Below the pieces are notes generated by a model. That model saw nothing but the letters and a program-made list of their open reading frames with translations. It was not told where the DNA came from and ran no database searches. From Planctomycetota bacterium (lineage in GTDB: Bacteria > Planctomycetota > UBA8742 > UBA2392), in NCBI GenBank assembly GCA_020845475.1, contig JADLFN010000002.1, positions 1 through 64,000 on the forward strand: a stretch of 64,000 nucleotides of DNA, in the 5' to 3' direction. Shown here piece by piece: positions 8,439 through 50,255 of the stretch (position 1 is the stretch's first letter; each line of letters begins with the position of its first letter). Position numbers and translations under genes: made by a program.

Positions 8439-9725
8439 ATGGCCACGAACCAGGAAGCCTTTGACGAAGCCAAGCAGTTCATCCCCGGCGGCGTGAACAG
8501 CCCCGTGCGCGCCTTTCGCGCCGTCGGCGGCACGCCTTTGTTTTTTGCTTCGGGCTTTGGCTGCAAAGTGACCGACATCGAAGGCCACGAGCACATCGAT
8601 TACGTTGGCTCCTGGGGCCCGCATATCCTGGGCCACGCCCCCGAGAAAATCGTCGCCGCCATCACGCGCGCGGCGCGCGCCAGCACCAGCTTTGGCGCCC
8701 CCACCGTCAGCGAAACCGCGCTCGCCAAGGCCATCACCGAAGACTACCCCAACTGCGAACGCGTGCGCCTGACCAACAGCGGCACCGAAGCCGTCATGAG
8801 CGCGTTGCGCCTCGCGCGCGGCTACACGCACCGCAACAAGATCGTGAAGTTTGCTGGCTGCTACCACGGCCATGTGGATTCATTGCTCGTTGCCGCCGGC
8901 TCCGGCGCGCTGACGTTTGGGTCGCCCGACAGCGGCGGCGTGACGCCAGGCGTTGCAGCCGACACGATCGTGCTGCCCTATAACGATGTGGATTCCGTCG
9001 AGCGCGCCTTTGCCGCCCATGGCAACGAGATCGCAGCCACGATTGTCGAACCCGTCGCAGGCAACATGGGTGTAGTGTTGCCCACGCGCGGTTTCCTGGA
9101 GAGCATTGCCGCCATCACGCGCGAAAACGGCGGTCTGTTCATCATGGACGAAGTGATGACCGGCTATCGCGTGGCACTGGGCGGCGCGCAGCAGTTGCTC
9201 AATGTGCTGCCTGATCTCACGGTGCTTGGAAAAATCATCGGCGGCGGCATGCCGCTGGCGGCCTTTGGCGGGCGCGCCGAAATCATGGATCAGCTTGCGC
9301 CGCTGGGTCCTGTGTACCAGGCGGGCACGCTATCGGGCAACCCCGTTGCCGTCGCGGCGGGCCTGGCGGCCCTGACGCAACTGCGATCGCACCGCGAAAT
9401 CTACGCCCGCCTGGAAGTGCTCGGCGCGCGCCTGGCGGTGGGACTTGCCGAGGGCGCGGAACGGGCCGGCGTGCCCGTTTACGTCGCGCGCTGCGGCTCA
9501 ATGATTACCGTTTACTTCCAGCACGGCCCCGTGCGCCATTTGGCCGACGCAAAGAAGAGCGACACCGCGCGCTTCTCGAAGTTTCACGCCGCTATGCTCA
9601 AGCGCGGCCATTATCTCCCGCCCAGCCAGTTCGAAGCCTGGTTCGTTTCCAACGCGCACACCTTTGCCGACATCGACAAAACCGTGGATGCCGCCAGGGA
9701 AGCGTTTGCGGAATCGCTTTCTTAG
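8439..9725 (+). CDS. hemL: glutamate-1-semialdehyde 2,1-aminomutase
   Basis: This PLP enzyme converts glutamate-1-semialdehyde to 5-aminolevulinate in the C5 route of tetrapyrrole synthesis. PGGVNSPVRAF at the N-terminus is the family signature. The PLP-binding lysine lies in LGKIIGGGMPLAAFGG, and AGTLSGNPVAVAAGLA completes the site. The 428-residue length is standard. The gene implies heme or corrinoid synthesis by the C5 pathway, which fits the B12-dependent protein at the right end of the window. The 107 bp upstream hold nothing I recognise. Confidence 0.97.
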   Translation: MATNQEAFDEAKQFIPGGVNSPVRAFRAVGGTPLFFASGFGCKVTDIEGHEHIDYVGSWGPHILGHAPEKIVAAITRAARASTSFGAPTVSETALAKAITEDYPNCERVRLTNSGTEAVMSALRLARGYTHRNKIVKFAGCYHGHVDSLLVAAGSGALTFGSPDSGGVTPGVAADTIVLPYNDVDSVERAFAAHGNEIAATIVEPVAGNMGVVLPTRGFLESIAAITRENGGLFIMDEVMTGYRVALGGAQQLLNVLPDLTVLGKIIGGGMPLAAFGGRAEIMDQLAPLGPVYQAGTLSGNPVAVAAGLAALTQLRSHREIYARLEVLGARLAVGLAEGAERAGVPVYVARCGSMITVYFQHGPVRHLADAKKSDTARFSKFHAAMLKRGHYLPPSQFEAWFVSNAHTFADIDKTVDAAREAFAESLS

Positions 9726-9780
9726 GTCCCTTTTCGAAACATCCCTTCGACATCGCGCGTTAATAGTGTAGGAGACGCGC

Positions 9781-10974
9781 ATGGCCGTCGATGAAATCGT
9801 TGCTGCAATGCCTGAAGCGAAGCTGCGCGAACCGCTTGCGCGCGTGCTTGATTCCGGCACGCCCGAGGATTGGCGCGCCCTCGAAGCCGCCTGCAGCCCC
9901 GAGTCCGCCGATGCCCTGCTTGCAGCCGCACTCAAGGCGCGCGAGTTGCGCCATGCCGCTCATGAGAAGCTGCTGGCTGCGGTGCTTGCGCTTTCTCCCT
10001 GGCACGTGGAGGCCAGCCTGGTCATGGCGCGCGGCTATCTGGCGCGCGGCCTTGCGCGCCAGGCGCACGTCCTGCTCGCGAATCTGCGCAGGAACCGGGC
10101 TTCAGAGAAACAGGCCGAGCACGCGGGGCTGGATGAAATGCTTCTGCGCGTGGCCCAGGCATCCGGAAACGCTGAAGATGCCCGGGCCGCCGCCTATCGC
10201 CTGGCGATCAACACCGACGCGCCCTGGCCGGCTTTGCTCGCTGCGGGCGAGTACTTTCGCGCAGAAAAAGATCTCGACGCGCAGCGCACACTGTTTGCGC
10301 GCATGATCTCCGCGCGGCCCGACGATGCCGAGGCCAACGCCCTCATGGCATCGTGGCTTCACGACGAAGGTTACGATGAGCAGGCGCAGAGGCACATTGA
10401 GCGCGCGATCGCACATGCAACTTCGCGCGAACAACGCGTACGCGCACAACGCCTGCTGTTTGAGATCCGGTTCCCCGACGATGACGCGGAGCTGCGCAAG
10501 CTCACGGAGAGCTTCTTCGCCGCCAAGCCTGTCGAAGCGCTGCCCGTGCTCAAGCGCCTGACGCGCAAGCATCCCCACCTGGCGGAGGCCTGGCTGTTTC
10601 TGGGCTTTGCGCTGCGCCGCGATCGCCAACTCGGGGAAGCCATCGGCGCCTTTGAGCGCTGTGTCAAACTCAGTGCCGATCCCAACGCCCACAAAGAACT
10701 TGCCGCGCTCTATGGCGAGGCCAATGACCCTGCGCGGGCGGCCAGGCACGCGCGCAAGGCGCTTGAACTGCTGGGCGAGCACGACCGAATTTCCTGGGTC
10801 AACCTCGGCGCGGCACTCTGCGAGATGCGCAGGCTGCATGAAGCAAGCGCCGCACTGTCTCATGCGCGCGAGCTTGATCCCCAAAGCCCGCAGGTCGCAA
10901 TGCTCGAACAATCTATCAACGCCAGGCAAAAGCCCTTGCGCGGCTACTACAATGCTCGCATGGTGCGTTTATGA
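9781..10974 (+). CDS. TPR-repeat protein
   Basis: This 397-residue cytoplasmic protein has no signal peptide. It consists mostly of helix pairs that fit degenerate tetratricopeptide repeats, for example AEAWLFLGFALRRDRQLGEAIGAFERC near residue 265 and the following ISWVNLGAALCEMRRLHEASAALSHA. TPR solenoids bind partner proteins, and no catalytic motif is visible. GGAG lies seven bases before the ATG. The stop overlaps the start of the next TPR gene (ATGA at 10971-10974), so the two are almost certainly co-translated and may act together. The function is not recognised. Confidence 0.8.
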   Translation: MAVDEIVAAMPEAKLREPLARVLDSGTPEDWRALEAACSPESADALLAAALKARELRHAAHEKLLAAVLALSPWHVEASLVMARGYLARGLARQAHVLLANLRRNRASEKQAEHAGLDEMLLRVAQASGNAEDARAAAYRLAINTDAPWPALLAAGEYFRAEKDLDAQRTLFARMISARPDDAEANALMASWLHDEGYDEQAQRHIERAIAHATSREQRVRAQRLLFEIRFPDDDAELRKLTESFFAAKPVEALPVLKRLTRKHPHLAEAWLFLGFALRRDRQLGEAIGAFERCVKLSADPNAHKELAALYGEANDPARAARHARKALELLGEHDRISWVNLGAALCEMRRLHEASAALSHARELDPQSPQVAMLEQSINARQKPLRGYYNARMVRL

Positions 10975-39582: not shown

Positions 39583-41256
39583 ATGGCAAACCCCGAAATC
39601 GCAGAGAAGTTCACCCGTTTCAAGGGAAAGCGCGCGCTGGTCATGGGCCTTGGCCTGTGGCAGGGCGGCGTGGAGGCCGTAAAGTTTCTGCACCGGTGGG
39701 GGGCGAGCCAAATCCTTGTGACCGATTTGCGCGACGAAAAAACCCTCGCGCCCAGCCTCGAAGCCATCAAGGACATTCCGGTTACGTTGCGCCTGGGTGA
39801 ACACCGCGAGGCCGATTTCGCGCGCGCGCAAGTCGTCATCCACTCCCCCGCCGTGCGCCCGGACAACAAGTATCTCGTAGCCGCGCGTGAGGCGGGGGCG
39901 GAAGTGACGCAGGAGATGTCGCTCTTCATCGAGGCTTGCCCGGCTTTCACGATTGGCATAACTGGGAGCAACGGCAAGACAACAACCACCCTGCTGGCTT
40001 ACGAGATGTTGTGCGGGATTTACGAGCGGGCCCAACCGGAACTCGAAGGCAAATGGGCCGATCCGGTGCCAAACCTGCCCGAAACAGGGCAGCGTGTGTG
40101 GCTGGGCGGTAACGTGGGCACGCCGCTCATCAACCGTCTGGAGGAAATCGAGAAAGAAGATGTGGTCGTGTTGGAACTAAGCAGCTTTCAATTGATGGAC
40201 TGGCACCGCATCCAGAAATCCTGCTTGTTTGCTCTGATCACCAATATCACTGCGAACCACCTCGATTGGCACAAGGACTTCGACGAGTATGTTTGGGCGA
40301 AAAGCGCGATCTTCCGCTATCAAAATGAGAAAGCGTGCCATTCGTGCGTGGTGAACGCAGACGATCCAGTCGCGAACGCATTTCGAGAAGAGTTTTCCCG
40401 CTTGTACGTATACTCGATTCGCGGCGTCCCGACTGAATGGATTCATAGCAACGCGCAGTTGCTGAGTTGGGGTTACGAGAACGGGCTGTACTCGGACCAG
40501 GGTACTTCAGCGCTTCGTTGGCTTGCAGGCGAGCGTCCGCCGGCTCCCGAGCCGAAGCGCAGTCGGAGTGCGGAGAAACTCAAAAAGGAACGAACTCCCA
40601 AACTTCCGTTCGGCAGAAAGAATCACCCCGGCGAGCAGCAGGTAGCAGAAGCACGACCGTTCTGCGCGCGCGCCGACTTGCGGCTGCCCGGCGACTTCAA
40701 TTGGTCGAACCTCGCGGGCGCATGGGCAGTAGTGCAGGGGTTGTTTGTGCACGGTGGATTTGGAACCGTCATACAGAGCATCCGTAGATTCCGCGGCGTC
40801 GAGCATCGACTGGAACCGTGTGGCAGCATCAATGGCGCGCGGGTTTACAACGACAGCATTGCGACAGACCCTGCAGCGACGCTGGCCGCGCTGAGTGCCT
40901 TTGACAAATGCGTGCACCTGATCCTCGGCGGCGGCAGCAAGAACATTGATTACACGGAACTGGGCAAGCGCATCGCAACGCATTGCGGCATCAAGGCGAT
41001 TTACCTGCAAGGTACGACTGCGCCCGCCATCAAGGCCGCCATCGGCGCGGCTTCGATTCCAATGCACGATTGCGCGACGTTCGATGAAGCCTGCGAGCGC
41101 GCTTTCAAGGCGCTTACGCCCGGCGACGTCCTGCTCATGTCGCCCGCGAGCACGAGTTTCTACGAGTACGCACCGGGAAAGAAATTCGCCAACTTCGAAG
41201 AGCGCGGCAAGCATTTTAAGGCGCTCGTAGCACGGGCCTCCCGGCCCGTGACGTAG
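39583..41256 (+). CDS. murD: UDP-N-acetylmuramoylalanine--D-glutamate ligase
   Basis: MurD adds D-glutamate to UDP-MurNAc-L-Ala in peptidoglycan synthesis. The ATP loop GITGSNGKTTTT lies at residues 125-136, NITANHLDWH at ~221-230, and the C-terminal domain motif NDSIATDPAATLAAL at ~423-437. At 557 residues it is ~100 longer than usual. A basic, proline-rich insertion (~305-362, KRSRSAEKLKKERTPK) sits before the second-domain motif, which reads LPGDFNWSN instead of GxHNxxN. The last codons (VARASRPVT) are encoded by a dispersed palindromic repeat, so the C-terminus has been rewritten by repeat insertion. The gene implies that the organism makes peptidoglycan. Confidence 0.92.
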   Translation: MANPEIAEKFTRFKGKRALVMGLGLWQGGVEAVKFLHRWGASQILVTDLRDEKTLAPSLEAIKDIPVTLRLGEHREADFARAQVVIHSPAVRPDNKYLVAAREAGAEVTQEMSLFIEACPAFTIGITGSNGKTTTTLLAYEMLCGIYERAQPELEGKWADPVPNLPETGQRVWLGGNVGTPLINRLEEIEKEDVVVLELSSFQLMDWHRIQKSCLFALITNITANHLDWHKDFDEYVWAKSAIFRYQNEKACHSCVVNADDPVANAFREEFSRLYVYSIRGVPTEWIHSNAQLLSWGYENGLYSDQGTSALRWLAGERPPAPEPKRSRSAEKLKKERTPKLPFGRKNHPGEQQVAEARPFCARADLRLPGDFNWSNLAGAWAVVQGLFVHGGFGTVIQSIRRFRGVEHRLEPCGSINGARVYNDSIATDPAATLAALSAFDKCVHLILGGGSKNIDYTELGKRIATHCGIKAIYLQGTTAPAIKAAIGAASIPMHDCATFDEACERAFKALTPGDVLLMSPASTSFYEYAPGKKFANFEERGKHFKALVARASRPVT

Positions 41257-41303
41257 CACCACCCCATTTCGTGATGCCACACGGGCCGGGAGGCCCGTGC
41301 TAC
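41227..41303. repeat. pair of identical 24-bp units in inverted orientation
   Basis: The unit GTAGCACGGGCC + TCCCGGCCCGTG at 41227-41250 is repeated exactly as its reverse complement at 41280-41303, 29 bp apart. The first copy encodes the end of MurD. The second contains the TAG stop of the ESCRT-III-like gene on the minus strand. A variant pair lies at 45571-45634. The pair can fold into a large cruciform and may terminate both convergent genes. It resembles REP/BIME-type elements. Confidence 0.85.
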
Positions 41304-41908
41304 TTCGCCTTTTCTTCGTCGGCGCCCATTTCGCCGAGTTCTTTGGCGATTTCTTTGTCGAGTTCCTCGCGCGTCTTCTTTTTGCGCTCCGTGGAAGAAA
41401 TGCCGATCATCTGGTCGATTTCTTCGTCGCTGACCAGCTGCTCGCCGCTGGCGGTCTCGCCTGAGAACAGCGTGTCCTTGCTCATGTCCAAAAACAAATC
41501 CATGCGCTGGCTCATCGTCTCGGCCTGCGCCATGGCGTGCTCGAAGTTGCGCTGCGTCTTTTCCAGATCGGTGGCTTTGTAAACATCGTTGATGCTCTTG
41601 GCCACCACACCCATGCTCTCGGCGAACGTGGCGTAACTCTCCGCCTGGTTCTTCATCTGGAACGCGGCTTCGATGGTCAGCAATTGCCGCTCGATGGCGC
41701 GGCGCTGCGTGGCTGTGGCTTTGAGCGACTTGCGGATGAACGCGAGCTGGTCGTTGGCGCCCATGCGCTGCGCGCGCCGCGCTTTTTCGAGCCACTCTTC
41801 CTCGTTGCGGCCAAGATCCGTGAGCTGGCGCTTGATGCGCTGGATGCCCTTCTTGATTTCCATGTCGCGTTGCATGCGACGTTCTTCTTTGGATTTGAAA
41901 ATTCCCAT
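41300..41908 (-). CDS. ESCRT-III-like coiled-coil protein A
   Basis: This 202-residue protein is almost wholly helical. It starts MGIFKSKEERRMQ. A basic first half has an alpha1/alpha2 hairpin-like pattern (IQRIKRQLTDLGRNEEEWLEKA; AQRMGANDQLAFIRKSLKA; AIERQLLTIEAAFQMKNQAE), followed by AESMGVVAKSINDVYKA, QAETMSQRMDLFLDM and an acidic stretch VSDEEIDQMI, with a charged tail. Length, basic-to-acidic polarity and motif order match ESCRT-III (CHMP/CdvB) proteins, including the CHMP-like M-x-x-x-x-K-x-M/I and the late DxxxD/E segment. It is not an obvious PspA. It lies in a cluster with a Vps4-like ATPase. The assignment is from pattern only and could be generic coiled coil. Confidence 0.6.
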   Translation of the reverse strand: MGIFKSKEERRMQRDMEIKKGIQRIKRQLTDLGRNEEEWLEKARRAQRMGANDQLAFIRKSLKATATQRRAIERQLLTIEAAFQMKNQAESYATFAESMGVVAKSINDVYKATDLEKTQRNFEHAMAQAETMSQRMDLFLDMSKDTLFSGETASGEQLVSDEEIDQMIGISSTERKKKTREELDKEIAKELGEMGADEEKAK

Positions 41909-41951
41909 GGGTACGTCCTCAAGAGCCACGAATCGCACGAATCTTCACCAA

Positions 41952-42362
41952 CTAGCGTATCACCCGTTTGAACTCCAGCTTAGCCGGGTTCCCGAAATTG
42001 ATTATTAGGCAAAGGCTCAATCCGGTTGCTTTGAGGTAGTTGAGGGCCTGTGCTATTTCAACATCGCTGATCTTCGGAACGCATTTTAGTTCAACGATGA
42101 TCTTGCCGAAGCAAACGAGGTCAGCGATGAAGTGCTTGTCCAACCACTCGCCCTTGTACTTGATGCGCAAAACCTTCTGCGACTCAAAAGGAATGGATCG
42201 AAGTCTGGATTCTCGTTCCATGCCTTCCTGGTAAACGGACTCGAGAAACCCAAATCCCAGTTCGTTGTAGACCTCCATAGCCGCGCCAACGATCGCAAAG
42301 GCCTCTTCCTTGAATAGAAGTTCGCCGTCCCTCGCCGAGTTTTGGTGTGAATTGGTGTTCAT
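41952..42362 (-). CDS. GxxExxY family protein
   Basis: This 136-residue protein carries the naming motif GFGFLESVYQEGM and a PD-(D/E)xK-like core (FIADLVCFGKIIVELKC), as expected of GxxExxY proteins, a widespread nuclease-fold family of unsettled role often scattered by transfer. Its base composition is visibly lower in GC than the genes on either side. It interrupts the ESCRT-like cluster between protein A and the zinc-ribbon gene, so I consider it a later insertion rather than a component. Confidence 0.85.
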   Translation of the reverse strand: MNTNSHQNSARDGELLFKEEAFAIVGAAMEVYNELGFGFLESVYQEGMERESRLRSIPFESQKVLRIKYKGEWLDKHFIADLVCFGKIIVELKCVPKISDVEIAQALNYLKATGLSLCLIINFGNPAKLEFKRVIR

Positions 42363-42369
42363 TGGTGGC

Positions 42370-42822
42370 TCAACCCAAACATCCTTTGAATATTAAGCCC
42401 TGGAACATCAGCAAGAGGATCAGCACGGCGGTAATCAGCATGCAGCCGCGCGCGTTGGTTCCTGTTTGATTGGGGATGGGGCCGGCGACCGTGAAATCAG
42501 CGTGGTTGGCCGCGAAATCGCGCTCGGTCACCAAGTCGCCCAGGCCGTTTTCCTGCGAGCAGCCGGGGCATTTTGCGGGCGCGAGCAATTCCTCGGGCCA
42601 GTGGTAGCCGCAACTGGAGCACACGTTCTGGGTGTCGCGATCGAAGACTTCGTCGTCGAGGTCCTCGACCATCATCTCGCTTGAAATGTACGCCGAGCAG
42701 CCCAGGCAACGGAATTGCTTGAGCTTGGGGTGGGGGATCTCGCTGTAGCCCTTGGCGCAATAGGGACAGCGCGTGAGGTGCTTTTTCGCGAGACGAATCA
42801 GTTGGCGTTCATGGTCTACCAT
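42370..42822 (-). CDS. tail-anchored zinc-ribbon protein
   Basis: This 150-residue protein has four CxxC knuckles, CPYC (19-22), CLGC (39-42), CSSC (68-71) and CPGC (85-88), forming two zinc ribbons. An acidic spacer (EDLDDEVFDRD) lies between the second and third. A single hydrophobic helix near residues 127-145 (MLITAVLILLLMFQGLIF) lies almost at the C-terminus, so the ribbons probably face the cytoplasm on a tail anchor. The start overlaps the upstream membrane gene by seven bases. In context it could recruit the ESCRT-like proteins to the membrane; that is inference. Confidence 0.7.
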   Translation of the reverse strand: MVDHERQLIRLAKKHLTRCPYCAKGYSEIPHPKLKQFRCLGCSAYISSEMMVEDLDDEVFDRDTQNVCSSCGYHWPEELLAPAKCPGCSQENGLGDLVTERDFAANHADFTVAGPIPNQTGTNARGCMLITAVLILLLMFQGLIFKGCLG

Positions 42823-43136
42823 GCGGTCATTGTCGATTGTCGATTGACGATTGTCGATTGGGCGTGACCAGCGCCGCGACGCCTTCGATTGCGAGACAAC
42901 TCATATATCCGCACGATCGACCAGATTCCGAGCGCCCCGACGAGCGCATAAGCGGCCATCGTCGCGAACAACAACATCAAACCCAAGGGCGCGTTTCCAA
43001 ACGGGCCAAGCTCACCTGCAAAGGAGAGCGGGACTTCCCAGATTGCGCAAACGCGGTCAAAGACGCTCCTGGGCGCGAAACAAATCCCCAACTGCGCCAG
43101 CAGGAACAGTGAAAAGATGAGCGAGAATCGGGCCAT
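42816..43136 (-). CDS. small two-helix membrane protein
   Basis: This 106-residue protein has two hydrophobic segments (FSLIFSLFLLAQLGICFA and PLGLMLLFATMAAYALVGALGIWSIV), followed by YELSRNRRRR on the probable cytoplasmic side. The final ~15 residues are encoded by a TCGATTG word repeat, so the original C-terminus may have been replaced. It sits downstream of the Vps4-like gene and overlaps the zinc-ribbon gene. No family is recognised. Confidence 0.6.
   Translation of the reverse strand: MARFSLIFSLFLLAQLGICFAPRSVFDRVCAIWEVPLSFAGELGPFGNAPLGLMLLFATMAAYALVGALGIWSIVRIYELSRNRRRRGAGHAQSTIVNRQSTMTAW
42830..42860. repeat. TCGATTG word repeat
   Basis: Four copies of (T)GTCGATTG/ACGATTG occur in tandem at the junction of two overlapping small genes in the ESCRT-like cluster. 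It is a low-complexity word repeat of the type found between many genes here. Confidence 0.6.
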
Positions 43137-43156
43137 AGTCAGCTATCGGCGCAATC

Positions 43157-43190
43157 AATCAAAAATCCAAAATCGGAAATCCAAAATCGC
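43157..43190. repeat. AAATCCAAAATC word repeat
   Basis: Tandem AAATCC/AAAATC words lie just downstream of the Vps4-like gene (minus strand). The same word, in the other orientation, occurs at 47091-47128 in front of an ESCRT-III-like gene. Confidence 0.65.
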
Positions 43191-44429
43191 CTAGTCCTGA
43201 TCCTGCCGCCAATCGAGATAGCGCGCGGCTTCTTCGGGCGAGGTGACCGGGCGGATGCCTTCGGCAGCGACCTGGAAATCGCGCAGCGTGAGCGAGCGCA
43301 CTTTGACCTGATAGTTCTTGGCCTGGGCCAGCCCCTTGTCGATGATGTCCGGCAAATCGGCGTTGAGCTCGGAAATCATCGTGCTTGTCACCTGCTTGAC
43401 GATGCGTTCGATCTCGCGGCCAGAGTAGCCGTCCGTGAGCTTCACAAGCTCCGCCATGTCGCAATCGACCACGAAGCCGCGCTTTTCGGTTTGGATGCGC
43501 AGGATGGCCTCGCGCGTGATCGGGTCGGGGAGCGGAATGAGAATCTGCTTTTCAAAGCGCGAGAGCACCGCGTTATCGATTTCCCACGGGCGGTTCGTGG
43601 CCGCGATGGTGAGCACGAAAATGTCGGTGCGGCCTTTTTCCGTCAGGCCATCGAGCTCGCTCAGGATCGTGCTCAGGATCCTTCTTTCGGCGCCGCTTTG
43701 CTCGTCAGAGCCGCGCGAGGCCGTGAGCGATTCGAACTCATCAAGAAAGACCACGCTGGGGCTGTTGTCGCGCGCGGTACCGTAGATTTCGGAGATGATC
43801 TTGGAGCTCTCGCCGAAATACTTGCTCATCACGCCGCTGACTTTTACGTTGAAAAAGAGGGCCTGGCCGTCGCTCGTAACTTTGAGCGCGTTGGAAGTCG
43901 CCGCCGCGATCAGCGTTTTGCCCGTGCCCGGCGGGCCGTAGAACATGATGTTGCGGAATGTGGCAATCTTGACGCCCTTGGGCGGCGTGGCGAGCGAAAG
44001 GCCCAGCGTGTATTTGATGTCGCGCTTGGTCTGCTCCAGCCCGCCGATGTCGTCCCACGTCACGGGCGAGACGTGAATCAGCGAGTTGACGGCGTTGCTC
44101 AGCTCGCTCTTGTTGCCCACGCTCTCGGTCTGCTTGGCATCGACGTCTTCATCAGAGCTGGGCGGAGCCGGCAGCTTGGCGCCCGCGGCCTGTTCGTTGT
44201 GCAGCTCGCGCAGGCGGCCCGCGAATTCGCGATATTCGATGGCTTTGCGTTTGCGCGCATATTCCTGCGAGCGGCTGGTGGCGTGCTCGGCCCACTTGAG
44301 CATGAGCTTGGCGGCAGCGTCAAAATGCTGCGCGGCTTGTTCGGAATCGCCGGCTTTCCAGGCCATCTTGGCCTTGTGCAGCGAATCATCGCAGGCGGAT
44401 TTGAGTTTGGGTCCGAGGTCGAGGCTCAT
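43191..44429 (-). CDS. Vps4-like AAA ATPase with MIT-like N-terminal domain
   Basis: This 412-residue protein is a meiotic-clade AAA ATPase. Residues ~8-80 form three helices with the MIT pattern (AKMAWKAGDSEQAAQHFDAAAKLM, then EYARKRKAIEYREFAGRLREL). After an acidic linker the AAA core begins VTWDDIGGLEQTKRDI. Walker A is GPPGTGKT (165-172), the pore loop MSKYFGES (201-208), Walker B VVFLDEFESL (226-235), sensor 1 ATNRPWEID (277-285) and the arginine finger SRFEKQILIPLP (290-301); GYSGREIERIV (334-344) ends the core. ATNxPWxxD and RFEKxIxIPLP are hallmarks of Vps4/CdvC. Vps4 disassembles ESCRT-III filaments. Its start overlaps the stop of the double-MIT gene by four bases. Confidence 0.88.
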   Translation of the reverse strand: MSLDLGPKLKSACDDSLHKAKMAWKAGDSEQAAQHFDAAAKLMLKWAEHATSRSQEYARKRKAIEYREFAGRLRELHNEQAAGAKLPAPPSSDEDVDAKQTESVGNKSELSNAVNSLIHVSPVTWDDIGGLEQTKRDIKYTLGLSLATPPKGVKIATFRNIMFYGPPGTGKTLIAAATSNALKVTSDGQALFFNVKVSGVMSKYFGESSKIISEIYGTARDNSPSVVFLDEFESLTASRGSDEQSGAERRILSTILSELDGLTEKGRTDIFVLTIAATNRPWEIDNAVLSRFEKQILIPLPDPITREAILRIQTEKRGFVVDCDMAELVKLTDGYSGREIERIVKQVTSTMISELNADLPDIIDKGLAQAKNYQVKVRSLTLRDFQVAAEGIRPVTSPEEAARYLDWRQDQD

Positions 44430-45577
44430 GGTGTGCCACCCTGCGTTTTCCGCAGCCTGCTGCTGAACGTGAGCAGCTTGCAGGCCTTGATTTCGCTGGC
44501 GGCGATTTCTTCGTCGCTCTTGCTTTCGCCCGCTGCGGCCAGCAGCTCCATGGCCGCTTTCTTGAAGTGCTCAGCGGCGCCCTTAAAATTGCCCTCGGCG
44601 TAAGCCTTGCGCGCGAGTTCCATGGCGCCCTGCGTTTGCTGCTCGGGTGCTTTGCGCAGCACGGCCGCGATCTCACGCGCGAATACGCTTGAAAGCATCT
44701 GCTCGATTTCGCGCTGCGGGTCCAGCGCGTTGGCGGCACTCAGGTCATCGGCGATGGCTTCAAAGGCCGAAGCCAGCAAAAAGAAATCGCACTTGTTCAA
44801 CGCGGCCGCGAGTTGCACCACGCGCTCGGCTTTGAAGGCGCCTTCTTCAATGCGGCGCAGGCTGGGCGCGGTCTTGGCTTCGCTGAGATCGGGTGCCGGC
44901 ATTGCGGGCGGCGCCGGTTTTGCCGTGTCTGCGGCTGGCTCGTCGCTGAACTCAAGGTGCAGCACCTCCGACCGCGGCTTCTCGGGCGCTTTCGCTTCCC
45001 CGGAAAGCAGGCGCAGGTGCGGCTGGCTGGGCACTTTTGGGGATTCGTCAGATTTCGCAGCCGCGCTTTCAACGCGGGGCGGAATCTCGGATGACTTGGG
45101 TTTTTCGGCTTCGGGCGGCTTGGGCACGTTGACGGACATTTCAAGCAGGGCTGCGGAATTGTCCGGCGCTTTGCGTTTGGAGGATTCGGCGGAGTCGCGC
45201 GGTGTGGCGGCCTCGATGTCCGCGTTGATGACGGCGAGTTCGCTCTGGCTTTCGGTGCGCAGGCGGTTGGCTTTGCTTTCGTCCGGGAGGCCGTCAACGG
45301 TCAGCGCTCGCAACTGGTTGCATAGGTCGAGCAGTTTGGTGGCTTTGCGCTTGATGACCTGCGCCTGGGCCGGCGCCTGCACGTGAGCGGCGTACTTGCG
45401 CAGCGTGTTGGCGGCGCGTTCGAAGTGGTCGGCGGCGCTGTCGTAATCGCCGTCGTTCCAGCTTTCCGTGCCGGCTTTTTCTTCCTGTTCGGCGATACGC
45501 TTGAACTCGCGGGCGGTTTGCTCGCTGAGGCCGATTTGGGTGTTCGACTGTTGAGGGGCTTTAGCCATGGGTAGCAT
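44426..45577 (-). CDS. protein with two MIT-like helical modules
   Basis: This 383-residue protein carries at residues ~20-92 a three-helix MIT-like module very close in style to that of the neighbouring ATPase (EKAGTESWNDGDYDSAADHFERAANTL, then KRKATKLLDLCNQLRAL). A Pro/Glu/Lys/Ser-rich disordered linker spans ~100-240. A helical segment follows, then a second MIT-like module at ~312-377 (ELARKAYAEGNFKGAAEHFKKAAMELL, then SEIKACKLLTFSSRLRKT). MIT domains bind ESCRT-III C-terminal tails, so this may be a Vta1-like adaptor between filaments and ATPase. ATG 45568 is an alternative start; the start region lies in a palindromic repeat unit. Confidence 0.65.
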   Translation of the reverse strand: MLPMAKAPQQSNTQIGLSEQTAREFKRIAEQEEKAGTESWNDGDYDSAADHFERAANTLRKYAAHVQAPAQAQVIKRKATKLLDLCNQLRALTVDGLPDESKANRLRTESQSELAVINADIEAATPRDSAESSKRKAPDNSAALLEMSVNVPKPPEAEKPKSSEIPPRVESAAAKSDESPKVPSQPHLRLLSGEAKAPEKPRSEVLHLEFSDEPAADTAKPAPPAMPAPDLSEAKTAPSLRRIEEGAFKAERVVQLAAALNKCDFFLLASAFEAIADDLSAANALDPQREIEQMLSSVFAREIAAVLRKAPEQQTQGAMELARKAYAEGNFKGAAEHFKKAAMELLAAAGESKSDEEIAASEIKACKLLTFSSRLRKTQGGTP

Positions 45578-45634
45578 GGGCCTCCCGGCCCATGGTTGTG
45601 CTACTTAGTACACGGGCCGTGAGGCCCGTGTTAC
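45571..45634. repeat. second inverted pair of the 24-bp palindromic unit (variant copies)
   Basis: Unit GTAGCATGGGCC + TCCCGGCCCATG at 45571-45594 faces CACGGGCCGTGA + GGCCCGTGTTAC at 45611-45634. Within each unit the arms carry compensating changes (ACGGGCC/GGCCCGT against ATGGGCC/GGCCCAT), which keeps the stem. On the minus strand one unit provides the start region of the double-MIT gene and the other the TAA stop of ESCRT-III-like protein B. Confidence 0.8.
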
Positions 45635-46242
45635 ACCGCCTTCTCGTCCGTCTCCAGCTTGCGCTTGAGCTCCTGTTCGCTCTTGAGGGCTTCGTCGAAG
45701 CTGCCGGAGCTTTCGGCCTCGACGATGCTGTCGATCTCCTCGAGGAACTGCTTTTTCTCGGGATCGTCATCCATCATGGCTTCTTCGACCTCGAGGCCGA
45801 GCGAATCGAGTGTTGCGTTCAACTCGTCGATGTAGCCCTCTTCGTCAATCTGCGCCAGCGCAAGCTTTGAGTCCAGGCCGCTGTTGCGAATGCGCGTGAT
45901 GAGCTTCTGGATGCTGTTCTTGTCTTTGCGCTTTTCGAGGCGTTCAAGGCCGCGCGTGTATTTCTTGAGCGCGATGCCTTCAAGGTTGGCGATCTTCGCG
46001 GCGCGCTTGTTGAAGGCGAAATCGTGTTTGAGGTCCTTGAGTTCTTCCCAGAGGTAATCGACCTCGATCTGGTTGCCCTCTTTGCGGGCGTTCTTGATCT
46101 GGTCGATGATGCCGCTTTGGCGCGTGGAGAGCTTGCGCACCTCCATGAAATACTTGCGGCGCTCACGCTCGACCTCGCGCAGCTTCACCTTGAGCAAGCG
46201 CGAGTCGATCTTTTGTCCGAAGAGCAGTTGAAAGAATCCCAT
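45631..46242 (-). CDS. ESCRT-III-like coiled-coil protein B
   Basis: The protein has 203 residues from ATG 46242 (a GTG six bases earlier is the other option). It starts MGFFQLLFGQKID, a short amphipathic segment. It is strongly basic and helical to ~residue 110 (REVERERRKYFMEVRKL; NLEGIALKKYTRGLERLEKRK), then IQKLITRIRNSGLDSKLALAQIDEEGYI, then an acidic region (LEVEEAMMDDDPEKKQFLEEIDSIVEAES), and ends EQELKRKLETDEK, which resembles a MIM1 tail (L-x-x-K-L). This is the ESCRT-III polarity. It lies between protein C and the double-MIT gene. Pattern-level evidence only. Confidence 0.55.
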   Translation of the reverse strand: MGFFQLLFGQKIDSRLLKVKLREVERERRKYFMEVRKLSTRQSGIIDQIKNARKEGNQIEVDYLWEELKDLKHDFAFNKRAAKIANLEGIALKKYTRGLERLEKRKDKNSIQKLITRIRNSGLDSKLALAQIDEEGYIDELNATLDSLGLEVEEAMMDDDPEKKQFLEEIDSIVEAESSGSFDEALKSEQELKRKLETDEKAV

Positions 46243-46273
46243 GTGCACCGTCCGCTTTGACTGATCTGTCTTA

Positions 46274-46356
46274 AGGTATCAGGTGTCGGGTATCGGGTAT
46301 CAGGAGTCAGGATTGCGTGCTCTACCTGATACCCGGAACCTGATACCCGATACCTG
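46274..46356. repeat. GGTATCAGGTGTCGGGTATC word repeat, inverted
   Basis: Words TATCAGG/TATCGGG at 46276-46312 are faced by CCTGATACCC words at 46325-46354, giving an imperfect long hairpin in the gap between ESCRT-III-like genes C and B. Confidence 0.7.
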
Positions 46357-46358
46357 CT

Positions 46359-47090
46359 TCACTCCGTTTGCGGCTTTTCCTTCACCTCGGCCGCTTTCAG
46401 GTCTTTCTCGCGTTGCGCCATTTCTGATTCGAGCTTGGCCATCTCCGCTTCCATCTCGGCTTCGCTCATTACTTTTTCGGGCGCGGCTTTTTCTTTGAGG
46501 ACCCGCTCGCTTTCGCTCGGGGCTCTGACAACTTCTTCGGCTGGCTTGTTTCCCATCAATTCGCGTTCGAGTTTCTTGAGGTCTTCCTTCTCTGACAAGC
46601 TGAGGATGCCGGTGTCAGTGCTCTTCATCGAATTGGCTGTCTCGATGGACTCCATGTACTTGTCTTTGCGCTCGTCGAAATCCATCGCAAGGCGCTCGAC
46701 CATCTGGCTCTCGATGCCGCGCAGGTTCATGGCCGCAATGGTTTGGTGTTTGTCGACCATGCTTTGCAGCACTTCGATGTTCTTGTTGTAAACGTGGATG
46801 CGATGCTTGAGCGACTCAATGCGCGTGCGATTGCGCTTGATGCTGAGCAACACGACTTCTTTTTCCTGATCGCCAATTTTTCCCGCCTTGAGCTTATCGG
46901 CCTGATCCTTCTCGTGCGACTCAAGGCGCTGCAATTCCTGCATGACTTTGCGCAGCTCGACTTCGTTGCGCGTGATCAGTTCGTCGTAACGGTCCAGCTC
47001 TTCGCGCATGGCTTCCTTGTCCACGGGCTTCTCTTCGTCGGGGTCGCCGCCGCGGCCAAACATGCGTTTGAAGAAATCGCCTAAGCCCAT
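46359..47090 (-). CDS. ESCRT-III-like coiled-coil protein C (Snf7-like N-terminus)
   Basis: This 243-residue protein starts with MGLGDFFKRMFGRGG, closely resembling the amphipathic N-terminus of Snf7/CHMP4 (…FGKLFGAGGG) that inserts into membranes. A short spacer and a long helical region follow (REELDRYDELITRNEVELRKVMQEL; VLLSIKRNRTRIESLKHRI; NIEVLQSMVDKHQTIAAMNLRGIESQMV). A late acidic helix (GILSLSEKEDLKKLERELMG) and a Lys/Glu tail end the protein. I chose ATG 47090 because the longer frame to 47297 runs through a word repeat and the overlapping membrane gene. Alternatives are a PspA-like or generic coiled-coil protein. Confidence 0.6.
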   Translation of the reverse strand: MGLGDFFKRMFGRGGDPDEEKPVDKEAMREELDRYDELITRNEVELRKVMQELQRLESHEKDQADKLKAGKIGDQEKEVVLLSIKRNRTRIESLKHRIHVYNKNIEVLQSMVDKHQTIAAMNLRGIESQMVERLAMDFDERKDKYMESIETANSMKSTDTGILSLSEKEDLKKLERELMGNKPAEEVVRAPSESERVLKEKAAPEKVMSEAEMEAEMAKLESEMAQREKDLKAAEVKEKPQTE

Positions 47091-47446
47091 TTTGGATTTT
47101 CGATTTTGGATTTTGGATTTTCGATTGGGTCGCCAGCCCGCACAGCTTTCCAAGTCGAGATCGGTAAGGCCAACACCAAGCCGTTCAAACAGAAGCCCAT
47201 GAACACAACGCAGAATCCAAGCCAAGCGGGCGGTCCCGAGCCCCCAGGCAAACCAGGCATCCATAACGAACCAACAAACCCTGGCAAGAAAAACCAAGCC
47301 TCACGGAAAGGATCAAGCCAAAGAGGCCAACTCTTTCCGAAGGAAAGACCCAGAGCAACCACAATCGCGAACTGAATCGCCCCGAGCCAGAAAGCAAGCC
47401 GCAACTCGTACGAAGCAAACAACCGGATGTGAGTCACTGAGTTCAA
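47081..47446 (-). CDS. small membrane protein upstream of ESCRT-III-like gene C
   Basis: This 121-residue protein has three hydrophobic stretches (LRLAFWLGAIQFAIVVALGL, AWFFLPGFVGSLWM and PAWLGFCVVFMGFCLNGLVLALPI). The last ~14 residues (IENPKSKIENPKWA) come from a word repeat. The stop overlaps the start of protein C by ten bases, so the two are probably co-translated. No family is recognised. Confidence 0.6.
   Translation of the reverse strand: MNSVTHIRLFASYELRLAFWLGAIQFAIVVALGLSFGKSWPLWLDPFREAWFFLPGFVGSLWMPGLPGGSGPPAWLGFCVVFMGFCLNGLVLALPISTWKAVRAGDPIENPKSKIENPKWA
47091..47128. repeat. TTTTGGATTTTCGA word repeat
   Basis: Tandem TTTTGGATTTT/CGATT words lie immediately upstream of the start of ESCRT-III-like protein C, in opposite orientation to the repeat at 43157. 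The overlapping membrane gene reads through it as IENPKSKIENPK. Confidence 0.7.
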
Positions 47447-47498
47447 TCAAGAATCCAATGTCGAAAATCGCCAAACGCGGCACGTTCAATTCCGCCAA

Positions 47499-48299
47499 TC
47501 ACGCCCCAACGGACGTGAACCTGTTCCGCTGGATAATGAGATTTCCCTCTACGTCCTTCACGTCTAATCCCGGAGTTCTTCCAGCAAACAGCATTGCGCG
47601 ATCCGTGACCAGCTCGCCGCTTACCGCCGCGCGCCGCGCCAGTTCTTCCAACAGCAGGAATCCGCCCGGCTCTCGCAACTCTGCAGCAGCGTTGAGGGCT
47701 GCATCGATTCTTGCCGCTTTTTGCTCCATCGGCTCGGGGTCGAAGAGATTCTCGAACAGCGCGGGCATGAGCACACCGTCGCGCGGGCAGCGCACGCGCC
47801 AGCCGGGGTTCAAAAATTCGACAAAGGCGGCGCGCCAGTTAGGGCCGCCGGTGAGAGCGCGCATGGCCTCATCGCTGGGGCCCAGATTTCCATCGCGTGC
47901 CTGGCCTGCTACGCCCAGAATGAAGTAAATGTCCGGGCGCATGGAGCAGAGCGACCAGGTTGCGCATTGCTCAAGTGTTTGCGGCGTGAAACGGTCGCGC
48001 TCTATGGGCGCCCATGCGAAATCAAGCACGACGCAGACCTTCAAAGTGGTCGCGCCGAGCAGCGGCTTGTGCAAGAGGCCCAGCGCCTCGCGGCGTGCAA
48101 AGGCGCCGTTGCCTGCGGGCGAAAGATCGCCGTGCACATGGCTGCGGCGCGAAACGCGATTGGGGTCGAAGTCGTAGAGTGAGCCATCGATCGGATGCGG
48201 CAACATGCGCTGGCGAACAAGCCGCGATTCGAAACCCGAAAACAGGCTTTGCATCGCGGTCAGCGCGGAAGTACGGGTGATGTCAGCAGCTTCAGCCAT
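47499..48299 (-). CDS. hypothetical protein heading the ESCRT-like cluster, possible C-terminal winged helix
   Basis: This 266-residue soluble protein comprises an alpha/beta N-terminal part (LKVCVVLDFAWAPIERDRF, PDIYFILGVAGQARDG) and a C-terminal ~65 residues (IDAALNAAAELREPGGFLLLEELARRAAV, then LDVKDVEGNLIIQRNRF) that could be a winged helix: two helices followed by a two-strand wing. I recognise no family. ATG 48299 has GGAGG 12 bases upstream. ATG 48320 is possible, but a -10-like TATACT at 48324-48329 would make it leaderless. It is the first gene of the minus-strand series ending at 41300. The much longer frame antisense to the ABC gene is spurious. Confidence 0.6.
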   Translation of the reverse strand: MAEAADITRTSALTAMQSLFSGFESRLVRQRMLPHPIDGSLYDFDPNRVSRRSHVHGDLSPAGNGAFARREALGLLHKPLLGATTLKVCVVLDFAWAPIERDRFTPQTLEQCATWSLCSMRPDIYFILGVAGQARDGNLGPSDEAMRALTGGPNWRAAFVEFLNPGWRVRCPRDGVLMPALFENLFDPEPMEQKAARIDAALNAAAELREPGGFLLLEELARRAAVSGELVTDRAMLFAGRTPGLDVKDVEGNLIIQRNRFTSVGA

Positions 48300-48437: not shown

Positions 48438-50255
48438 TTGGCTGAAAACATCCATGAGGAAGAAGTCCTTGGCAAGGCCTACGACACCCGGCTGATCAGG
48501 CGCCTGTTGCCCTATGCCCGTCGCCATGGCGGCACCGTGGGCCTTGGCGCAATCTGCATGCTTGGCGCCGGCGGCATGGGGCTGATGCTGCCTCTGCTTA
48601 TTCGCGAAATCATCAACGGGCCTTTCACGGAACTGGCGAAAGACGGGGCTTCCCAGGCCGCCGTGGAAGCGCTTGGGCTCCTGGCGCTGGGTTATTTTGT
48701 GCTGGTTGTTCTGCAATTTGTGGCGCAGTTCGGTAACAGCTACTTGTTTCAGTCGCTTGGCGCCAAGGCCGTGTTCGATTTGCGGCGCGACGTTTACGCG
48801 CATATCCAGAAGCAATCGCTGCGCTTCTTTGACCGCAACCCGGTAGGCCGCCTGGTAACGCGCGTGACCAGCGATGTGGAAGCCGTGGGCGAAGTGTTCG
48901 CCTCGGGTCTGGTACAGCTTGTGGGTGACATGATCATCGTGCTGGGTGCGCTGGCGATGATGTTCTTCATCTCGCCCGGCCTGACTGTGATCGTGCTGGG
49001 CGCGATGCTGCTGATGGGCGCGATTTCCTGGGCGTTCAAGAACCGCGCGCGCAACTCGTTTCGCGACATGCGCCTGAAACTGGCAGCTGTGAATTCCTTT
49101 CTCAACGAAACGATCCAGGGCTGGCGCGTGACGCGCATCTTTGGCACGGAGAAGCGGCAGTCGAAGCGCTTTGACCAGCGCAGCGCCGATTATCGCGAGG
49201 CCACGTACCGCACGGTGTTCAACTTCGCGATGTTCTTTCCGGCCGTGGAAATCGCGACCACGCTCGCACTCTCGGCGCTGGTCTGGTACGGCTCGCGCGA
49301 GATCCTTGATAACACGCTCAGCTTTGGCAGCTTCTTTGCCTTCTTCTCTTACACACAACTGATGTTCAACCCGATCCGCGAAATGAGCGAAAAATACAAC
49401 GTGCTGCAAAGCGCCATGGCCAGCGCCGAGCGCCTGTTCAAGATTCTGGATTCGAAGATCGACATCGTCGAACCGGCCGCGCCCAAGACGCCCGAGATCA
49501 AAGGCGAGATCGAATTTCGCAACGTGTGGTTCGCCTACCAAGATGAGAACTGGGTGCTGCGCGATGTGAGTTTCAAAGTGCCCGGAGGCTCATCTCTCGC
49601 GCTGGTTGGGGCCACGGGCAGCGGCAAGAGCACGATCATCTCGCTGGTGATGCGCTTTTACGACGTTCAAAAAGGCAGCGTGCTGCTGGATGGTGTGGAC
49701 GTGCGCGAAATGCCTGTGGCGCATTTGCGCGCTGCGTTTGCGCTCGTGTTGCAGGACGTGTTCCTGTTTGCGGGCAACGTGCTCGACAACATTCGCTTGG
49801 GCAACGAAGGCATTTCGCGCGAGCGCGTTGAACGCGCCGCTGAAGTCGTGCATGCCGGCGGGTTCATTCGCTCGCTCGACAAAGGCATCGACGCAGAAGT
49901 CGCCGAGCGCGGCATTACCTTCTCCGCGGGCCAGCGGCAACTGCTCGCGTTCGCGCGCGCACTGGCGTTCGAGCCCAAGATTCTCCTGCTCGACGAAGCC
50001 ACAAGCAACATCGACAGCGAAACGGAAGCACTGATTCAAGATGCGCTCGCCAAACTCATGCAAGGCCGCAGCGCGATAGTGGTCGCGCACCGCCTGAGCA
50101 CCGTCACCGCCAGCAACCAGATTCTCGTGCTCCACAAAGGCGAAATCGCCGAGCGCGGCACGCACGAAGAACTGCTGGCACAGGGCGGGCGCTATAGCCG
50201 GCTGTATCGGCTGCAGTTCGGCATTGAGGAAAGCGTAGTGAGCCCTGCGCGGTAG
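48438..50255 (+). CDS. ABC exporter, MsbA/multidrug type (fused TMD-NBD)
   Basis: This 605-residue half-transporter has six transmembrane helices in residues ~20-330. The nucleotide-binding domain has Walker A GATGSGKST near residue 393, Q-loop VLQDVFLFAG, signature FSAGQRQLLAFARAL (a variant of LSGGQ also seen in YheH/MdlB-type exporters), Walker B ILLLDEATSNID, and the switch His in VVAHRLST. As a homodimer it would export lipids or drugs. No in-frame ATG precedes the first helix, so translation probably starts at TTG 48438. It is divergent from the ESCRT-like cluster; no functional link is evident. Confidence 0.92.
   Translation: MAENIHEEEVLGKAYDTRLIRRLLPYARRHGGTVGLGAICMLGAGGMGLMLPLLIREIINGPFTELAKDGASQAAVEALGLLALGYFVLVVLQFVAQFGNSYLFQSLGAKAVFDLRRDVYAHIQKQSLRFFDRNPVGRLVTRVTSDVEAVGEVFASGLVQLVGDMIIVLGALAMMFFISPGLTVIVLGAMLLMGAISWAFKNRARNSFRDMRLKLAAVNSFLNETIQGWRVTRIFGTEKRQSKRFDQRSADYREATYRTVFNFAMFFPAVEIATTLALSALVWYGSREILDNTLSFGSFFAFFSYTQLMFNPIREMSEKYNVLQSAMASAERLFKILDSKIDIVEPAAPKTPEIKGEIEFRNVWFAYQDENWVLRDVSFKVPGGSSLALVGATGSGKSTIISLVMRFYDVQKGSVLLDGVDVREMPVAHLRAAFALVLQDVFLFAGNVLDNIRLGNEGISRERVERAAEVVHAGGFIRSLDKGIDAEVAERGITFSAGQRQLLAFARALAFEPKILLLDEATSNIDSETEALIQDALAKLMQGRSAIVVAHRLSTVTASNQILVLHKGEIAERGTHEELLAQGGRYSRLYRLQFGIEESVVSPAR

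Follow-up and report, generated by a model that had tools for sequence, protein, structure and literature searches.

A conserved gene cluster of Planctomycetota that probably encodes a bacterial ESCRT-III/Vps4-like machine

Introduction

Are proteins of the endosomal sorting complex required for transport III (ESCRT-III) and an ATPase of the Vps4 type ever encoded side by side in bacteria? Archaea and eukaryotes employ ESCRT-III filaments together with the Vps4 motor for cutting and repairing membranes, whereas bacteria, according to published surveys, lack this pairing. The question is raised by a locus of a planctomycete genome (contig JADLFN010000002.1 of assembly GCA_020845475.1), of which we analysed the first 64,000 nucleotides (hereafter the window). 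A previous reading of this DNA, made without database searches (the sequence-only reading), had proposed that ten minus-strand genes at 41300-48299 form one ESCRT-III/Vps4-like system. We confirmed all ten open reading frames (ORFs) on the minus strand and, as proposed, adjacent genes either overlap (by 10, 4 or 7 bases) or lie close to each other (gaps of 7-116 bases). Five of these genes make up a core that is conserved far beyond the genus, the persistence in relatives on which the earlier interpretation had been staked. We consider it probable that the cluster encodes an ATP-driven, multi-subunit machine that remodels the inner membrane.

Planctomycetota are known for their invaginated membranes and for endocytosis-like uptake. 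In this phylum, which is also known for dividing without FtsZ (PMC5147048), the cluster is a concrete candidate for a role in the scission of membranes, in their repair or in the formation of vesicles. More generally, a conserved bacterial cluster with proteins of both the ESCRT-III and the Vps4 types alters the question of the origin of ESCRT. The core genes are the following, from the first of the cluster to the last:

J, 47499-48299, minus strand: 266 aa; ATG start at 48299; first gene of the cluster
H, 46359-47090, minus strand: 243 aa; ESCRT-III-like helical protein with a short N-terminal helix
G, 45631-46242, minus strand: 203 aa; ESCRT-III-like helical protein
AAA1, 43191-44429, minus strand: 412 aa; Vps4-like AAA ATPase with an MIT-like N-terminus and Vps4_C
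A, 41300-41908, minus strand: 202 aa; ESCRT-III protein of the Snf7/CHMP type, from profile matches

Results

Protein A

The A protein of the window matches the Pfam profile Snf7 with an E-value of 6e-5, and the same profile matches 19 of 24 diverse A homologues (best 2.7e-6). PspA_IM30 (PF04012) is absent from the families listed for A (24 homologues) and for the members of G or H. When the profile of the A homologues was compared with the sequences of the PDB, the top eight matches were all ESCRT-III proteins (four CHMP3, three Snf7 and one CHMP2A). The best one, to CHMP3 (5.6e-6), extends across residues 13-169, i.e., near the full length of the protein. These matches place A in the Snf7/CHMP family of ESCRT-III.

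All A homologues have a basic first half followed by an acidic second half. The MIT-interacting motif in its strict MIM1-type form, [DE]xx[LIMV]xx[RK]Lxx[LIM][RK], was found in the tails of four of the 84 homologues (0.04 in shuffled tails), e.g., in locus L091 (DAKMGDRLDALR; loci are designated by L and a number). A relaxed MIM1-like motif was found in 28 of the 84 tails, against 2.9 in shuffled tails (maximum 8 in 300); these counts are inflated by the relatedness of the sequences.

The ATPases and their MIT-like domains

AAA1 matches the Pfam family AAA with an E-value of 2.6e-33. Vps4_C (PF09336) was identified in 14 of 16 AAA1 homologues (best 2.7e-6; 0.087 in the window), and Walker A and Walker B motifs are present in 35 and 34 of 35 homologues, respectively. 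In a maximum-likelihood tree of AAA domains, AAA1 groups with VPS4B and spastin (support 95/90), apart from Cdc48, FtsH, a family of TPR-AAA proteins and the second ATPase described below. The reference sequences of the tree came from PDB alignments; human VPS4A and spastin served as bait in two of the searches and were themselves kept out of the tree. The NCBIfam scores of AAA1 are 173 bits for CDC48, 165 for PAN, 159 for CdvC and 114 for FtsH. Judging from its domains and its place in the tree, AAA1 is, as the sequence-only reading had it, an AAA ATPase of the Vps4 type whose N-terminus is MIT-like; it also has the C-terminal element of Vps4.

Many other lineages encode a second Vps4/CdvC-like ATPase beside A, which we name AAA2. 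In L140, part of a 3.8-Mb chromosome record, the best NCBIfam match of AAA2, over its full length, is CdvC (NF041006, 8.7e-69), with 232 bits over 14-368, short of the equivalog cut-off of 650. Its Vps4_C match (26.3 bits) is above the Pfam cut-off, and the pore loop of AAA2 (KWVG) is near that of mouse VPS4B (KWLG). On this evidence, AAA2 is closer to CdvC than AAA1 is.

The window genome also encodes a TPR-AAA ATPase with an adjoining TPR protein (L020, G000:C43). The pair also occurs elsewhere in the taxonomic order of the window genome (L019, L021 and L022), where the TPR partner has hydrophobic C-terminal segments. We considered whether the TPR-AAA protein of L020 might be the AAA2 that the window genome lacks, and rejected this, since the protein falls in a separate clade of the AAA tree.

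The Pfam profile MIT gave negative or weak results on single N-termini (e.g., 0.11 for the N-terminal segment of F, a neighbour of AAA1 in the window). We therefore built a joint profile from the N-termini of AAA1, AAA2 and F; both MIT-like segments of F align with the N-termini of the two ATPases. The joint profile matches the MIT domain of VPS4B over its full length (5.3e-6), matches, over most of its own length, the MIT domains of SKD1, Chs1, VPS4A, calpain-7 and MITD1, and matches part of the MIT domain of a Sulfolobus p60-katanin-like protein (CdvC). It also picks up TPR proteins, but only through a single repeat-sized piece of about 30 residues that is matched repeatedly, whereas MIT domains are matched end to end.

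The helical proteins G and H

Single-sequence scans with Pfam and NCBIfam gave no match for G or H, and comparison of their profiles with PDB sequences gave nothing credible. Their AlphaFold2 models share one layout: a short N-terminal helix, two long helices (about 41-51 residues) and more helices towards the C-terminus. The predicted helices span residues 4-9, 14-54, 58-104, 108-120, 123-147, 161-178 and 182-198 in G (mean predicted local distance difference test, pLDDT, of 75.9), and residues 2-10, 24-67, 73-123, 128-152, 164-177 and 209-236 in H (mean pLDDT of 77.3). In Foldseek searches against the PDB, the ESCRT-III superfamily accounted for nine of the ten best matches of G, the top ones including CHMP2A, CHMP3, CdvB, CHMP1B/IST1, Vipp1, CdvB2 and Loki CHMP4-7, with a non-significant lowest E-value of 0.066. 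Vipp1 or CHMP2A-CHMP3 accounted for seven of the ten best matches of H, with a lowest E-value (0.054) that is also non-significant.

The layout of a basic part followed by an acidic one is found in 100% of the G homologues and 61% of the H homologues. Profile-profile comparisons gave a weak link between G and A (78% probability, E-value of 1.7e-5 for one comparison), and none between A and H or between G and H. The predicted folds and the charge layout suggest that G and H are ESCRT-III-like, while their membership is not proven. Of the three ESCRT-III-like helical proteins put forward earlier, A is thus backed by Snf7/CHMP matches, and G and H by layout and Foldseek rank, not by significant scores. 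Some loci encode a tandem pair of G-type genes 5' of AAA1 (L082, L083, L094, L120, L124, L126, L130, L131 and L133), so that the number of ESCRT-III-like paralogues differs between lineages.

Core and accessory genes

The order J-H-G-AAA1-A is identical in the 12 family relatives with contigs spanning the locus (12/12), which indicates that the cluster is more than a chance assemblage. The named near relatives are metagenome-assembled genomes (MAGs) submitted as "Planctomycetota bacterium". In the family relatives the core adjoins an ABC exporter and murD (the contig of L044 stops short of murD). The flanks of the cluster in the window are bacterial, with a murD-type ligase at 39583-41256 and an ABC exporter at 48438-50255, both on the plus strand; further out lie PurB-, ThiE-, OTC- and lipoyl-synthase-like genes, the identities of the flanking genes being taken from a reading of their sequences. 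In L045 (G001), which belongs to a different family of the same order, AAA1 is separated from A.

The core genes are under purifying selection: relative to L033, the nearest relative, the ratio of nonsynonymous to synonymous substitution rates (dN/dS) is 0.037 for A, 0.033 for G, 0.098 for H, 0.075 for AAA1 and 0.092 for J. The gene J is conserved and leads the cluster across the family and in the majority of the distant loci. A profile search of PDB sequences gave no match for J, and its C-terminus is a possible winged helix. The other five genes of the cluster are the following:

I, 47081-47446, minus strand: 121 aa; small membrane protein with two hydrophobic windows
F, 44426-45577, minus strand: 383 aa; MIT-like segments at residues ~15-100 and ~305-383
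D, 42816-43136, minus strand: 106 aa; accessory small membrane protein with two hydrophobic windows
C, 42370-42822, minus strand: 150 aa; accessory protein with two CxxC...CxxC zinc ribbons and one C-terminal transmembrane segment
B, 41952-42362, minus strand: GxxExxY / PDDEXK_3 gene; outside the system

No relative has B at the corresponding place. Since this gene (Pfam PDDEXK_3/GxxExxY, 3.3e-37) was seen here in the window only, we regard it as an unrelated insertion, and the proposal that all ten genes form one system fails on this point. I is also restricted to the window: the congeners L032 and L033 have no room for it, as H there follows J directly. Orthologues of F are confined to the genus (L032, L033), and C was found in the genus and in one neighbour (L034). 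The cysteines of C are at positions 19, 22, 39, 42 and 68, 71, 85, 88, and its hydrophobic window starts at residue 121. For D, BLAST against the relatives gave no match; in L032 the equivalent slot is occupied by a 127-aa ORF with hydrophobic stretches. Hence, the double-MIT-like protein (the proposed adaptor), the protein with zinc ribbons and both small membrane proteins of the sequence-only reading do exist, but all lie outside the conserved core, and the first is specific to the genus.

The family has an insertion hotspot between AAA1 and A, a slot that is occupied by other genes in sister genera. It contains the PDDEXK_3/GxxExxY gene in the window (41952-42362), two trypsin-like proteins preceded by a fragment of C in L034 (9291-13376), and a Kdo/WaaP-type kinase in several sister genera, e.g., in L042 (8802-9647, 1.3e-26). 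In L035, a four-helix-bundle-like gene (9409-9819) is placed between G and AAA1 instead.

Distribution and neighbourhood

We found A in 55 of 392 evenly drawn genomes of Planctomycetota. In the named collection it was found at 107 places, including a 2.45-Mb contig and the 3.8-Mb chromosome record; 80 were kept, nearly all from planctomycete MAGs, among them Phycisphaerae and Brocadiia. All named carriers are MAGs or uncultured assemblies. Carriers are sporadic in two other phyla (1/68 and 1/40 genomes), which were reached through loci submitted as Hydrogenedentes and Sumerlaeota. The dominant layouts are J-G-A-AAA2 and J-H-G-AAA1-A, the latter either alone or accompanied by AAA2. The assignment of J and G in the remotest loci is based on weak scores combined with position. 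Of 79 named loci, 57 have at least one Vps4-like AAA gene next to A, and many of the others are short contigs.

A protein with an SPFH domain is encoded 3' of AAA2, on the same strand and mostly immediately next to it, in 18 loci (including L079, L084, L094, L136-L140 and L169; Band_7 matches up to 2.7e-5). It has about 600 aa, with the SPFH/Band_7 domain at the N-terminus and a possible beta-propeller at the C-terminus. A-type loci often carry AAA2, the SPFH protein, or both. We conclude that, in other lineages, the system includes AAA2, the more CdvC-like of the two ATPases, and the SPFH protein. In 16 loci, e.g., L077 (12919-13779), L166 (2605-3456) and L139 (5561-6121), the neighbourhood of the cluster also encodes an unclassified protein with a conserved hydrophobic part that probably spans the membrane; the copy of L077 has a weak match to LpoB (0.029).

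Discussion

Role of the cluster and alternative explanations

If the cluster encodes an ESCRT-III/Vps4-like machine, as we think probable, A, G and H would attach to the inner membrane on its cytoplasmic side, by means of the N-terminal helices and the basic halves of the three proteins, and would co-polymerise there. Their acidic C-terminal halves would hold them soluble until recruitment. AAA1, and AAA2 where present, would dock through the MIT domain on the C-terminal helices of the subunits and use ATP to draw them through the pore, an extraction that would make the polymer change shape, constrict or be recycled. J would probably be a regulator or nucleator, and the SPFH, zinc-ribbon and membrane proteins would act as anchors or adaptors that differ between lineages. 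Membrane repair, or the scission of a vesicle, bud or septum, would be the likely outcome.

Several results weigh against this explanation. G and H have no significant match to ESCRT-III in sequence or structure (Foldseek E-values above 0.05). The A protein of the window scores 23 bits with Snf7, below the Pfam gathering score of 27.3; its tail fits MIM1 only loosely, and the strict motif is limited to one group of four related loci. The Pfam profile MIT does not match the N-terminus of AAA1, and archaeal CdvC and katanin are not in the AAA-domain tree. One might then suppose that the relationship to ESCRT is confined to A and the AAA ATPases, that G and H are unrelated coiled coils, and that the ATPase is a general unfoldase, all the more as AAA1 scores well with the models of CDC48 and PAN. 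We regard this as improbable: ESCRT-III and Vipp1 proteins dominate the top Foldseek ranks of both G and H, whose charge layout and helix lengths fit, and AAA1 has Vps4_C and an MIT-like domain. The nature of the carriers, all MAGs or uncultured assemblies, might also raise the suspicion of an assembly artefact or of eukaryotic or archaeal contamination. This is refuted in practice by the bacterial flanks (murD, ABC exporter) and by the breadth of the distribution (107 places, the large contig and the chromosome record among them); moreover, orthologues diverge as expected and under purifying selection.

Two other alternatives concern roles that are compatible with an ESCRT-III/Vps4-like machine, and our estimates for them should be read accordingly. 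FtsZ was found over the cut-off in none of the 392 sampled Planctomycetota (controls 13/14), which makes a Cdv-like division role attractive; ten of these genomes have weak FtsZ/tubulin-like matches (E-values of 1e-10 to 1e-47, sub-cut-off) that could represent divergent members of the tubulin family. The way in which planctomycetes manage to divide without FtsZ has yet to be explained (PMC5147048), and the cluster might be their dedicated, CdvABC-like cytokinesis machine, with a division ring or scission collar that the AAA ATPases strip. The similarity of AAA2 to CdvC and the position of the cluster between murD and an ABC exporter in the family of the window are in line with such a role. 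Yet, 337 FtsZ-less genomes lack A, so that most divide without it and the cluster is not the general divisome of the phylum, and the adjacency to murD is restricted to the family of the window. A dedicated division machine thus seems rather unlikely to us. The correlation between the absence of FtsZ and the presence of A is uninformative, since the entire phylum sample is without FtsZ. We give more credit to a system of envelope stress or membrane repair that supplements or replaces PspA, where patches of A, G and H would be anchored by SPFH or membrane proteins and recycled by the AAA ATPases; it is a serious possibility, somewhat short of an even chance. As with AAA2 here, SPFH proteins are found with PspA and at some archaeal ESCRT loci (PMC10936438), and in sister genera a Kdo/WaaP-type kinase gene separates AAA1 from A; these SPFH and lipopolysaccharide-kinase-type neighbours point to envelope work. 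PspA was not found in the window genome (a 4.27-Mb assembly of 94 contigs, 77% complete; controls positive 9/14), nor in the 16 other carriers of its order. However, no stress regulator was identified, and PspA is also present in 24 of the 38 carriers that lie outside the order, which led us to reject a simple replacement of PspA by A. Given this contrast between orders (24/38 outside, 0/17 inside), the system is not a diverged form of PspA, nor does it simply take the place of PspA.

Overall, the earlier interpretation of the locus as an ESCRT-III/Vps4-like cluster is supported, and neither of the two outcomes that it had named as refutations was observed: A matches the ESCRT-III family and AAA1 does not group with FtsH or Cdc48, and relatives conserve the cluster. 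A bolder view would see here an ancient, vertically spread ESCRT of Planctomycetota, with an ESCRT-III polymer of three subunits, one or two Vps4-type ATPases and SPFH or membrane adaptors, which was present before or alongside archaeal Cdv or was acquired early, and which serves scission in bacteria without FtsZ. We advance it tentatively and find it more doubtful than not.

Comparison with known systems

Our literature search, which left out preprints and most subscription papers, retrieved no paper on an ESCRT cluster of planctomycetes. The novelty claimed by the sequence-only reading holds to this extent, but has a partial precedent in Ravi et al. 2024 (PMC11237479). That study reports bacterial Vps4-like AAA proteins with snf7 displaced by a TPR/6TM gene, and some bacterial genes of the PspA/Snf7 clade beside AAA+ ATPases; its main text has no mention of planctomycetes and does not name the cluster. 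These systems, as described there, share with ours the bacterial Vps4-like or classical AAA proteins and the proximity of Snf7-clade genes to AAA+ genes. The TPR/6TM type differs in being without snf7, and is the one that the TPR-AAA pair of L020 in the window genome resembles.

PspA and Vipp1 (IM30) belong to the ESCRT-III superfamily and have a similar predicted helix layout, Vipp1 holding the top Foldseek ranks of H. In contrast to them, A matches Snf7/CHMP rather than PspA_IM30, a Vps4-type ATPase gene adjoins A, and the cluster coexists with a separate PspA in many carriers outside the order (24/38). The resemblance to eukaryotic ESCRT-III and VPS4 lies in the near full-length match of A to CHMP3, in the match to the MIT domain of VPS4B and in Vps4_C. 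Here the differences are the distant sequences, the restriction of the strict MIM1 to one lineage, and the upstream ESCRT or ubiquitin parts, none of which was seen.

The archaeal Cdv/ESCRT systems (CdvB and CdvC; the ESCRT-III-Vps4-wHTH operons of Asgard archaea, with a winged helix-turn-helix gene) provide another comparison. CdvA, ESCRT-I and ESCRT-II were not found in the planctomycete core, the host is a bacterium, and two of the three helical proteins have diverged to the point of being undetectable by sequence. In both, Snf7-type genes adjoin a gene for an ATPase with MIT or MIT-like, AAA and Vps4_C parts, there are several ESCRT-III or ESCRT-III-like paralogues, and some loci encode an SPFH protein. 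The Asgard operons may have a further counterpart in J, the candidate winged-helix gene. Unlike the archaeal systems, the planctomycete cluster has two clades of AAA ATPases, AAA1 and AAA2.

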